A stretch of DNA of 38,819 bases from Streptomyces xanthophaeus. GTDB lineage: Bacteria > Actinomycetota > Actinomycetes > Streptomycetales > Streptomycetaceae. A program made the position numbers and the translations under genes. The stretch is from the NCBI RefSeq assembly GCF_000725805.1, contig NZ_JOFT01000061.1, forward strand, positions 1-38,819. The letters run 5' to 3'. Below the pieces are notes generated by a model, which was not told the origin of the DNA, did not search any database, and was given only the letters and a program-made list of their open reading frames with translations. This document shows positions 21,559 to 22,980 of this stretch, piece by piece; within the stretch, counting starts at the first letter, position 1, and every line of letters begins with the position of its first letter.

Positions 21559-22089
21559 TCAGGCGGAGACGGCCTCGGTCTCGGCCTCGGAGGCCGCCGG
21601 GGAGCAGCCGTGCATCGGCATCCGGGTCAGGCCGGGGAAGTAGACGTGCAGGCTGACCGCGCCGTCGAGGGTGTCGTTGACGACCTCGTGGGCGTAGCCG
21701 GGGGCGAAGACGCGCTGGGAGCCGGGGCCCAGCGACAGGCGTCCGCGGGCGGTGTGCTCGGTGAGCTCGCCTTCGAGGACGGTCATGACGCCGGAGGAGT
21801 CCCCGTGGCCGTGCAGGCCGCTGCCCTGGCCGGGGACCCAGCTGAGCAGCCAGACCTCGTAGCCGGGGCCGGTGCGCAGCCGGTGGTACCAGCGGGTGGT
21901 GGCGTCGTAGCGGACCAGGTGTTCCCAGGAGGCGCGGTCCGCGGCGACGGAGCGGGCGAGGCCGACGAATTCGGCGACGGTGGCCGGGTGTTCGCGGGCG
22001 GGCTGGAGGAGGTGCTGGACGGCGAGGATGTCGCCGGCGATCTGGAGGTCGCTCTCGGTGTGCGCGTGGGGGGTGGTGGTGCTGTTCAT
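21559..22089 (-). CDS. Cysteine dioxygenase (type I, cupin)
   Basis: It oxidises L-cysteine with O2 to cysteine sulfinate, using a mononuclear Fe(II). The 176-residue protein has the cupin core. WYHRLRTGPGYEVWLLSW leads to the metal motif GLHGHGDSSGVMTVLEGELTE (two His), and the third His is in FAPGYAHEVVND. The length suits bacterial cysteine dioxygenases. The ATG at 22089 has GAGGT about 11 bases upstream. It lies 27 bases before fbiA on the same strand, so read-through into fbiA is possible. The upstream leader encodes a run of six Cys codons (see 22177-22263), pointing to control by cysteine supply. Confidence 0.88.
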   Translation of the reverse strand: MNSTTTPHAHTESDLQIAGDILAVQHLLQPAREHPATVAEFVGLARSVAADRASWEHLVRYDATTRWYHRLRTGPGYEVWLLSWVPGQGSGLHGHGDSSGVMTVLEGELTEHTARGRLSLGPGSQRVFAPGYAHEVVNDTLDGAVSLHVYFPGLTRMPMHGCSPAASEAETEAVSA

Positions 22090-22126
22090 CGTGGGAGTAC
22101 CTCGACGGATGTCAGTGGGGCTGGCG

Positions 22127-22176
22127 GTTGCTGTGGGGGAGGGCCGGAGCTCTGAGGAGCCATGGCTCCACGGGCA
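22127..22176 (-). promoter_or_regulatory. Possible attenuator structures between leader and dioxygenase
   Basis: On minus, just after the leader stop, GGAGCCATGGCTCC forms a perfect 14-nt palindrome (about 22155-22168). Further on, ACAGCAAC (22134-22127) is complementary to GTTGCTGT within the Cys codons. A ribosome stalled on the Cys run would block the long-range pairing. No U-tract follows, so control might be at translation or by Rho. Confidence 0.35.
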
Positions 22177-22263
22177 TCAACAGCAGCAACAGCAACAGTG
22201 AACCTGGGCAGCACACAGGAACCCACGAATGGGGGTCCCGGAGGTGGCTGCGGTCACTGACAT
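22177..22263 (-). CDS. Poly-cysteine leader peptide upstream of cysteine dioxygenase
   Basis: A 28-codon ORF on minus starts with ATG at 22263-22261. It reads MSVTAATSGT... and ends ...AQVHCCCCCC, with TGA at 22179-22177, 87 bases before the dioxygenase ATG. The six Cys codons mix TGT and TGC (TGT TGC TGT TGC TGC TGT). One more Cys lies at residue 17. No Shine-Dalgarno precedes the ATG. Instead TTGACA (22300-22295) is followed after 18 bases by TCTCCT, with seven bases to the ATG, the geometry of a leaderless mRNA. Poly-cysteine leaderless short ORFs acting as cysteine-responsive attenuators are known in mycobacteria. The same role here is inference. The poly-Cys tract can pair with ACAGCAAC (22134-22127) in the spacer. 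Confidence 0.7.
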   Translation of the reverse strand: MSVTAATSGTPIRGFLCAAQVHCCCCCC

Positions 22264-22275
22264 GGGCACAAGGAG

Positions 22276-22300
22276 ACCGGTTCGAGGGCCGGACTGTCAA
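22276..22300 (-). promoter_or_regulatory. Promoter driving the leaderless poly-Cys ORF and cysteine dioxygenase
   Basis: On minus, TTGACA (22300-22295) is a perfect -35. Eighteen bases downstream TCTCCT (about 22276-22271) is a weak -10 at the correct place. A start site at the A of the leader ATG (22263) would leave no 5' UTR. Confidence 0.5.
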
Positions 22301-22614
22301 CCCAATGTCTCTTTTGGGGCAAAAGTTTCACCTCATCCGGTTACTGTGCGCGGAGAAAGGTTTGTGCAGTGTGGACCAGGGGATGTGGCGCCTTGCCGGA
22401 TCCAAACCAAACCCGCCATCTCGTGACCGGAATGTGATCTGCGCCGCTTCCGCGGCCCCATCGCAACCACACCGCAGAGGGTCACGTGGATTACGGGTGA
22501 AGACGGGCATCGCGTGACGCCCGTGGCATGTGTCACGATTTTTGGCGATATGAACACTTTCTGCATACGCTTGGTTCCGCAGAGTGAATAAGGGGCCCAA
22601 TAGCAGATCCCGGC

Positions 22615-22644
22615 TTGACTGCTCCGGAGCCACGCACTTGTAAT
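22615..22644 (+). promoter_or_regulatory. Vegetative-type promoter of whiB
   Basis: TTGACT (22615-22620) and TGTAAT (22639-22644) are separated by 18 bases, a good fit for the principal sigma factor. The start of transcription would be near 22651, about 65 bases before the whiB ATG. The stretch 22301-22614 holds no gene. It has several GTGA/TCAC half-sites, including CGTGAC 22514-22519 and GTCACG 22533-22538. Confidence 0.55.
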
Positions 22645-22670
22645 TTCACTCGTGTCGTTACGTAGCGATC

Positions 22671-22685
22671 AGTGACGGCATCACC
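22671..22685. promoter_or_regulatory. AGTGA-N5-TCACC inverted repeat in the whiB leader (BldD-like box)
   Basis: AGTGA (22671-22675) and TCACC (22681-22685) form an inverted repeat just after the predicted transcription start. It matches the half-site pattern described for the developmental repressor BldD (AGTGA...TCAC). As I recall, whiB is under developmental control of this kind. Binding is not shown. Confidence 0.45.
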
Positions 22686-22716
22686 ACGGGGACGCACAGA
22701 AGAGCGAGGGGCGCAC

Positions 22717-22980
22717 ATGACCGAGCTGTTTCAGGAACTGCTGGTCGAGGAGGCGGACGAGGAGCTCGGATGGCAGGAGCGCGCTCTGTGCGCCCAGACC
22801 GACCCCGAGTCCTTCTTTCCCGAGAAGGGCGGCTCCACCCGCGAGGCCAAGAAGGTCTGCCTGGCCTGTGAGGTCCGCTCCGAATGCCTCGAATACGCCC
22901 TCGCCAACGACGAGCGGTTCGGCATCTGGGGCGGTCTGTCCGAGCGTGAGCGGCGCCGCCTGAAAAAGGCAGCGGTCTGA
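22717..22980 (+). CDS. whiB: Sporulation transcription factor WhiB
   Basis: WhiB is a small iron-sulfur transcription factor that works with WhiA to switch aerial hyphae from growth to sporulation septation. The 87-residue product has the four cluster cysteines C25, C48, C51 and C57 (one Cys, then CLAC and a fourth), the GIWGG turn and the basic C-terminus ERERRRLKKAAV. The sequence is recognisable as WhiB itself, not another Wbl protein, by the N-terminus MTELFQELLVEEADEELGWQ. The ATG at 22717 follows GAGGGG; the upstream in-frame GTG at 22672 would lie inside the BldD-like box. A hairpin terminator follows at 23069-23107. Confidence 0.97.
   Translation: MTELFQELLVEEADEELGWQERALCAQTDPESFFPEKGGSTREAKKVCLACEVRSECLEYALANDERFGIWGGLSERERRRLKKAAV

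Follow-up and report, generated by a model that had tools for sequence, protein, structure and literature searches.

A conserved cysteine-codon leader with an embedded RNA fold upstream of cysteine dioxygenase in Streptomyces: a candidate attenuator

The cysteine dioxygenase (CDO) gene of Streptomyces is preceded by a short upstream open reading frame (uORF) that ends in a cluster of cysteine codons, and this association with CDO recurs across the genus. The arrangement was analysed in a window of 38,819 nucleotides from Streptomyces xanthophaeus (contig NZ_JOFT01000061.1; "the window" denotes this whole stretch). The reading frame and the Cys tail of the uORF are kept, and the peptide body between start and tail is not. 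The uORF is also an RNA structure, and for most species of the clades other than the window's, the beginning of CDO is complementary to its Cys run. Judged from these sequence features, we lean slightly towards the reading that the uORF acts as a cysteine-codon attenuator of the CDO gene. Cys-codon attenuation itself is already known from mycobacteria (Canestrari et al. 2020, doi 10.1111/mmi.14498), and the Streptomyces CDO leader probably extends this cysteine-sensing switch to an unexpected target.

The elements of the site are listed in Table 1. The uORF runs from an ATG at 22263, with no Shine-Dalgarno sequence 5′ of it, to a TGA at 22179-22177, and 87 nt separate its stop from the CDO ATG at 22089. 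The elements named in the original prediction (the TTGACA, the -10 element, the uORF ATG, the Cys run, the palindrome, the spacer motif and the CDO start) all lie where it placed them. Its assignment of the downstream gene to cysteine dioxygenase is likewise borne out by a Pfam match (CDO_I, PF05995, 67.4 bits), and matches to the sequences of solved structures are mostly cysteine dioxygenases (best E 2.3e-9). The gene order is whiB (divergent), CDO and cofD, with WhiB and CofD identified by Pfam in the window and both neighbours present by motif in 80/80 named Streptomyces loci.

Table 1. Elements of the CDO leader region in Streptomyces xanthophaeus contig NZ_JOFT01000061.1
Feature	Position	Strand	Basis or remark
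-35-like TTGACA	22295..22300	-	sequence; ends 31 nt 5′ of the uORF ATG
Weak -10-like TCTCCT	22271..22276	-	sequence; family pattern TNTCCT; no sigma-70 consensus match
Leaderless-type uORF, 28 codons plus stop, MSVTAATSGTPIRGFLCAAQVHCCCCCC	22177..22263	-	ORF reading and conservation
Six-Cys codon run (TGT TGC TGT TGC TGC TGT)	22180..22197	-	sequence and conservation
P1 hairpin within the ORF body	22208..22251	-	covariation across relatives
P3, flanking the uORF stop codon	22142..22185	-	covariation in other clades
GGAGCCATGGCTCC, GGAGC-loop-GCTCC hairpin in the window's clade	22156..22169	-	clade consensus
ACAGCAAC in the spacer, clade-specific P2′ partner strand	22127..22134	-	complementarity to the Cys run
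CACTGACAT	22109..22117	-	pairs with the uORF 5′ end (22263-22255)
GAGG, Shine-Dalgarno-like element of CDO	22100..22103	-	sequence
Cysteine dioxygenase (CDO_I), presumed target of control	21559..22089	-	Pfam and structure-sequence search

We surveyed 220 main CDO loci of the genus (80 of them named), which are the better ones among the matches listed; some genomes occur twice, weak CDO matches were left out, and 17 loci (L210-L226; second CDO genes or other families) were removed before counting. A uORF was scored when it began 29-34 nt after TTGAC, had 20-60 codons and carried at least 2 Cys. Such a uORF, with this promoter spacing and the Cys run, precedes CDO at 218 of the 220 main loci among the matches listed, the exceptions being L013 and L202; a Cys run missing from close relatives, which the original prediction had named as evidence against itself, was therefore not what we found. 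The 218 loci yield 179 distinct ORFs, every one with 3-7 Cys after residue 20. Clustered Cys codons in a short ORF 5′ of a target gene, the anatomy of a Canestrari-type attenuator, are present throughout this set. Of the 80 named loci, 79 yielded the uORF to a rule combining promoter and Cys tail, and the rule matched nothing else in the 875,332 bases of these loci, both strands counted; this conservation excludes a chance origin.

The frame was examined with landmarks that are blind to it (TTGAC, ATG and TGTTGA), which matched in 189 of 197 loci; the others were L013, L017, L028, L083, L122, L131, L132 and L188, among which L028 and L083 have an ORF that extends beyond the usual stop and fewer clustered Cys. 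The distance between landmarks is divisible by three in all 189 matched loci. On the CDO tree (114 loci), ORF length takes 8 values and has changed at least 22 times, always by a multiple of three, to which triplet slippage in the repeated tail may contribute. The spacer between uORF stop and CDO start has 55 lengths in the same 114 loci; it changed length at least 86 times and does not clearly favour any frame (46/38/30 modulo 3). The 189 in-frame distances and the length changes in whole codons point to selection on a translated frame, as in attenuators of the Canestrari type.

The promoter is conserved as well. The gap from TTGACA to ATG is 30 or 31 nt in 169/169 distinct landmark loci (one reads TTGACT), and among 158 distinct promoters T at -8 is invariant and C stands at -1 in 99%. 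Conserved spacing together with the invariant T at -8 places the start site at the ATG by geometry, in agreement with the promoter layout originally proposed, so that transcription would begin at or near the uORF ATG and the uORF would be of the leaderless type, behind a -10 that departs from consensus. A sigma-70 consensus scan of 21900-22700 returned no promoter, because the scan demands a second hexamer with A as its second base, and that A is missing here. TTGACA with TNTCCT is possibly an activator-dependent or alternative-sigma promoter common to Cys-leader genes, and the CDO leaders L256 and L257 of another family also read TTGACT...ATCCTTGGCGC-ATG. A block 5′ of TTGACA (window 22326-22400; CAAACCTTTC, CGGATGAGGTGAAAC) is kept in all three clades and may be part of the divergent whiB promoter.

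It could be argued that the conserved DNA as a whole is a divergent whiB promoter and the ORF its by-product, as the divergent WhiB motif in all 80 named loci and the further conserved block upstream of TTGACA would allow. We regard this as very improbable: the frame, the Cys tail, the covariation and the pairing with CDO are all found on the side of CDO, at a distance of 409-495 nt from the start of whiB.

What is kept in the peptide differs between tail and body. In the seven length groups that could be compared, the body gave dN/dS values of 1.36, 0.99, 1.22, 0.62, 2.06, 0.92 and 1.73, and an eighth group of 3 sequences has no amino-acid change in the body. The expectation that the Cys run would persist while other residues drift is therefore upheld, with 3-7 Cys in all 179 ORFs and a body dN/dS of about 1. 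Within the tails, TGT outnumbers TGC by 687 to 212, compared with 1 to 11 in four window genes. The dN/dS near 1 and the TGT excess indicate that the nucleotides are more constrained than the peptide, and conservation as a peptide was rejected on the same dN/dS values.

These values bear on a TnaC-like reversal of the logic, in which plentiful cysteine and the nascent peptide together halt the ribosome close to the stop codon, exposing the CDO start or shielding a Rho site, and CDO is induced by excess. Such a scheme suits a catabolic gene. Known arrest peptides, by contrast, are conserved as peptides, and no such conserved arrest peptide was found among the seven length groups (body dN/dS 0.62-2.06). 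In view of this and of the expression data discussed below, we consider a TnaC-like switch unlikely.

The RNA of the uORF shows covariation. The structure was taken from single folds, mainly that of L015, and then tested in an alignment (A1) of 47 diverse sequences that includes L015; 3 of 50 chosen sequences (L134, L143 and L156, with odd lengths or tails) were omitted. P1, as defined on L015, joins ORF nt 13-19 with 50-56 and 27-33 with 38-44. In P1 and P3 combined, both partners vary in 9 of the 19 pairs, against a shuffled mean of 4.5, and the covariation score is 0.229 versus 0.172 after shuffling (reached by 0/500 shuffles). When the structure was slid along the alignment the score fell to 0.04-0.10, a control biased towards the structure because the structure had been read from single folds. 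The number of further pair types in P1 and P3 is unremarkable (25 vs 23.4; 88/500 shuffles), and with RNAalifold the MAFFT alignments made for each clade yielded only weak consensus structures. Outside the window's clade the terminal pair of P3 is A-T in 47 cases, G-C in 7 and G-T in 1, with 14 unpaired and the motif absent in 11; in the window, P3 joins 22185-22181 with 22146-22142 and this terminal pair is a mismatch.

A third helix, P2, is formed in most loci outside the window's clade by the Cys tail as antisense to the CDO start, typically as GCUGUUGCUGUUC with GAACAGCGACAGC. Measured against the first 21 nt of CDO, the tail has a run of at least 10 uninterrupted pairs in 113 of 130 such loci and of at least 13 in 86 of them, compared with at least 10 in 3 of 39 loci of the window's clade and 7 bp in the window itself. 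Across 149 loci, the best helix of the last 45 ORF nucleotides falls on the CDO start in 110, on the spacer in 37 and elsewhere in 2. The tail often tracks changes in CDO, as with MNMDSD (2/3 loci), MNSDVQ and MNSNSD; where CDO has gained an AGC codon, the tail follows in L111 and not in L138. A tail paired with its own CDO start outscores 200/200 permutations by a small margin (30.05 vs 29.30), a comparison in which relatedness is uncontrolled; the tail stands out more from the 5′ part of the ORF, which scores 10.9 against 30.05 for the tail. Tree-aware tests of paired change had little power: among the cases listed, well-supported branches offered no more than 3 independent pairs, with which p 0.05 is unreachable.

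The window's clade has moved the partner strand. In its 39 loci the tail has the spacer sequence ACAGCRAC as its partner, and in the window ACAGCAAC complements GTTGCTGT of the Cys run (22196-22189); among the 38 loci scored, tails with C face G in 5/5 cases and A never. The pairing originally proposed between Cys run and spacer is thus supported in this clade, and in most loci elsewhere the CDO start takes the place of the spacer. The neighbouring palindrome, GGAGCCATGGCTCC, corresponds to a hairpin in the window's clade that is missing from the consensus of the two remaining clades. Pairing of the 5′ end AUGUCAG with a CUGACAU located 14-21 nt 5′ of the CDO ATG is present in 35 of the 39 loci of the clade that includes the window and in 5 of 130 elsewhere.

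Such pairing raises the possibility that structure came first, the tail being kept for its complementarity to the CDO start (AAC AGC GAC AGC) and control being exerted through general translation of the uORF. Poly-Cys would then be what the complement of the CDO start spells in one of three frames, and cysteine would not be the signal. A body dN/dS of about 1, the dominance of T-ending Cys codons, as pairing with AAC and AGC requires, and the frequent changes from Cys to Arg or Ser where pairing permits are all in keeping with this account. It is harder to reconcile with a frame that is intact in every landmark locus and with at least 3 Cys in 179/179 ORFs, where all 899 TGN codons of the tails encode Cys and TGG occurs 0 times. 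Moreover, the window's clade retains its Cys run although the pairing partner has moved, and leaderless-type uORFs with Cys codons also stand before CDO genes whose leaders are unrelated to this one, both in the window's genome and in a small number of other families. We therefore think a purely structural origin of the tail rather unlikely, while RNA structure and Cys-coding frame both appear to be kept.

Under the attenuator reading that we favour, RNA polymerase would start at or near the uORF ATG, and ribosomes would bind the leaderless end and move through the uORF to its Cys run. Where Cys-tRNA is plentiful they would complete the uORF and dissociate, and the Cys run would pair with the CDO start in most relatives, or with the spacer element in the window's clade; with the Cys run paired, translation of CDO, which we infer to be the controlled step, would be low. 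With scarce Cys-tRNA a ribosome would wait at the first Cys codon, cover the Cys run and block its pairing, and with the run covered, ribosomes would initiate on CDO. Opening upon Cys-tRNA scarcity would mean that CDO is turned on together with the sulfur-acquisition genes and not opposite to them. A cysteine-destroying enzyme induced at low cysteine is physiologically odd, and this counts against the attenuator reading.

Folding predictions bear on this scheme. The cost of opening the CDO initiation region (Shine-Dalgarno to +12) was computed with ViennaRNA, with a ribosome placed at chosen codons. Across 130 loci outside the window's clade, the predicted mean is 15.2 kcal/mol with no ribosome and drops to 9.6 kcal/mol with a ribosome at the first Cys codon; the corresponding values are 11.5 kcal/mol with a ribosome at the stop and 16.1 kcal/mol at codon 9. 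A ribosome at the first Cys codon is predicted to free the CDO start in 108 of the 130 loci, and this lower cost suggests that a ribosome waiting at the Cys codons should turn CDO on outside the window's clade. One at the stop codon is predicted to open it by more than 2 kcal/mol in 81 of the 130, a result that a TnaC-like arrest could also use. For the 39 loci of the window's kind, among them the window itself, no stalling effect is predicted (9.0, 8.9, 8.8 and 9.4 kcal/mol, in the same order), and the folding model leaves the link between Cys run and CDO initiation in that clade unexplained.

An intrinsic terminator (hairpin plus U run), as in trp-type attenuation, was not found on the minus strand of 21900-22700, an outcome that fits TnaC-like control. 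The spacers are C-rich, and their excess of C over G is about equal to that of the early CDO coding sequence; with the coding sequence equally rich in C, Rho control is not claimed, and this similarity counts against the TnaC-like scheme.

Published expression data address the sign of the response. In Streptomyces coelicolor, 0.15 mM peroxide raised 28 genes at the cut-off used in that study, including ssu, cysNDCHI and cysM, and by RNA-seq SCO3035 rose 6.54-fold and SCO5772 8.00-fold, as given in PMC4991794. SCO5772, the second CDO of this species, is described as a putative cysteine dioxygenase (PMC3087709). We take SCO3035 as the CDO of the window's type because its number adjoins that of whiB, SCO3034 (PMC4255298), an identification by position. 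The rise of SCO3035 alongside cysteine-biosynthesis genes argues against the reversed logic that the original prediction had allowed for a degradative target, and against its TnaC-like form; the predicted opening of the CDO start by a ribosome dwelling on the Cys codons, outside the window's clade, speaks against it as well. The peroxide rise is lost in an hbpS-senS-senR mutant and the response is at the mRNA level (PMC4991794), so the rise could be due to a transcription factor. Growth of Streptomyces SCUT-3 on feather medium raises two CDO genes 50.2- and 8.3-fold (PMC7181669), which could reflect induction by plentiful cystine and fits the TnaC-like alternative.

Peroxide also invites a further reading, that the nascent poly-Cys chain senses redox state or a metal in or near the exit tunnel, not the supply of Cys-tRNA; the response of SCO3035 and the Cys-X-Cys spacing of many tails would accord with it. 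Peroxide, however, would deplete thiols too, and the spacing and number of the Cys vary (3-7), so that we find redox or metal sensing quite improbable.

The attenuator reading has a bolder form, in which the Cys codons are sensor and effector at once, forming an antisense lock on the CDO start, and CDO belongs to the low-cysteine response as a sulfur-recycling enzyme. We offer this form tentatively, as one that may well not hold. If true, Streptomyces CDO would be a sulfur recycler, more than a means of simple cysteine disposal, and the reach of cysteine-codon attenuation, beyond the sulfur genes of mycobacteria, would come to include a cysteine-oxidising enzyme in a large antibiotic-producing genus. 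The design would be compact, with sensing codons doubling as the locking strand. It raises the question of why a cysteine-destroying gene bears a cysteine-starvation leader, and hence that of the role of CDO in actinomycetes.

By its anatomy, the leader's membership in the mycobacterial type of attenuator is supported. Like Ms5788A and Ms4527A, the polycysteine leaderless short ORFs of Canestrari et al. (2020), a kind also treated by Shell et al. 2015 (PMC4633059), it is a leaderless-type short ORF with Cys codons clustered near its end, 5′ of a sulfur-metabolism gene, and the idea proposed there, that ribosome speed at the Cys codons controls the downstream gene, is the one put forward here. 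The targets differ, being CDO in Streptomyces and genes named in those accounts as sulfur acquisition and hypothetical genes in mycobacteria. The window uORF also belongs to a different peptide family with no NCBIfam match, and it has an embedded covarying RNA and, in most relatives, Cys codons that pair with the target start. NF042934 (cis_reg_atten, "putative leader peptide") describes a Cys-containing leader as well; the window peptide and representatives of the two other clades gave 0 NCBIfam matches at E<=1, the leader profiles NF042933, NF042934 and NF042936 included, and Pfam returned no match for the uORF peptide.

Two better-known mechanisms offer partial parallels. In erm and cat translation attenuators an antibiotic is the signal, and a ribosome stalled on the leader ORF unmasks the next gene's start. 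A stalled leader ribosome would do the same here; unlike in erm and cat, the signal would be a shortage of Cys-tRNA, the uORF looks leaderless and the peptide is not conserved. TnaC, a conserved arrest peptide that senses excess, also stands before an amino-acid-degrading gene, but the peptide here drifts.

As far as our searches reach, what is new is the leader family, CDO as its target, an RNA fold with covarying pairs, and Cys codons that would themselves serve as locking strand. Rfam gave 0 matches in the window at gathering scores and 0 in 22000-22720 at E 1, and a plasmid search gave no match. Among the literature titles listed, a set that mostly leaves out subscription journals, none concerned the leader of a cysteine dioxygenase gene. 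A covariance model of the leader (R1) has one strong match in the window's genome, at 82 bits, followed by one of 19.4 bits (E 0.10). When R1 was run on 60 genomes of the class, strong matches (82-119 bits) occurred only before the CDO genes of the four members of the same genus, and the next score, 29.8 bits, is a second site in G056. Outside the genus, L255 (in G365) has an ORF ending GGRCCRCC directly before CDO, with a tail very similar in DNA to Streptomyces tails; its R1 score is 23.3 bits (E 0.005), and similar scores occur elsewhere.

Other CDO genes carry Cys leaders with unrelated peptides. The second CDO of the window's genome (L304, contig C34 1029-2011), which overlaps a rhodanese gene 3′ of it, has the leader MTGNDVRLWRRVHMDLLRYAGCVCRPSC, matching NF042934 at 36.9 bits (cut-off 27). 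Five second CDO genes of the genus (L210, L211, L213-L215) have leaders of the (V/L)RV(A/S)SALC kind, and L212, from another family of the same order, has MYQRADRLHHVKLRRVASALCCCLCCRPSL after TTGAC. In a comparison of four such second-CDO leader peptides with the NF profiles, one scored over the cut-off and two under it, and L212 was unmatched. No Cys leader was found at the ten loci of family f3 of the order (L216-L225; L221 is shortened by a contig end), nor such a uORF in the stretch examined at L226, a second, partial CDO match in G257. Among 54 CDO loci from a search of the class (L250-L303, a set that includes the second CDO of the window's genome), 4 have a Cys uORF (L256, L257, L268 and L303; TTGAC begins 36 nt upstream of it), 17 more have a short Cys-bearing ORF under a loose rule and 33 have none. 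This association of CDO with Cys leaders of unrelated peptide sequence supports cysteine as the signal, though it is far from universal.

Additional leader-like ORFs were observed along the way. The window's genome holds seven NF042934 matches over the cut-off (L305-L311), and the L306 leader precedes a protein that by eye resembles a cysteine synthase (putative). In family f6, short ORFs ending in ECCR plus 1-3 residues lie near CDO at L288, L293, L294 and L298; they have no TTGAC promoter at the usual distance and may represent a further class of leader.
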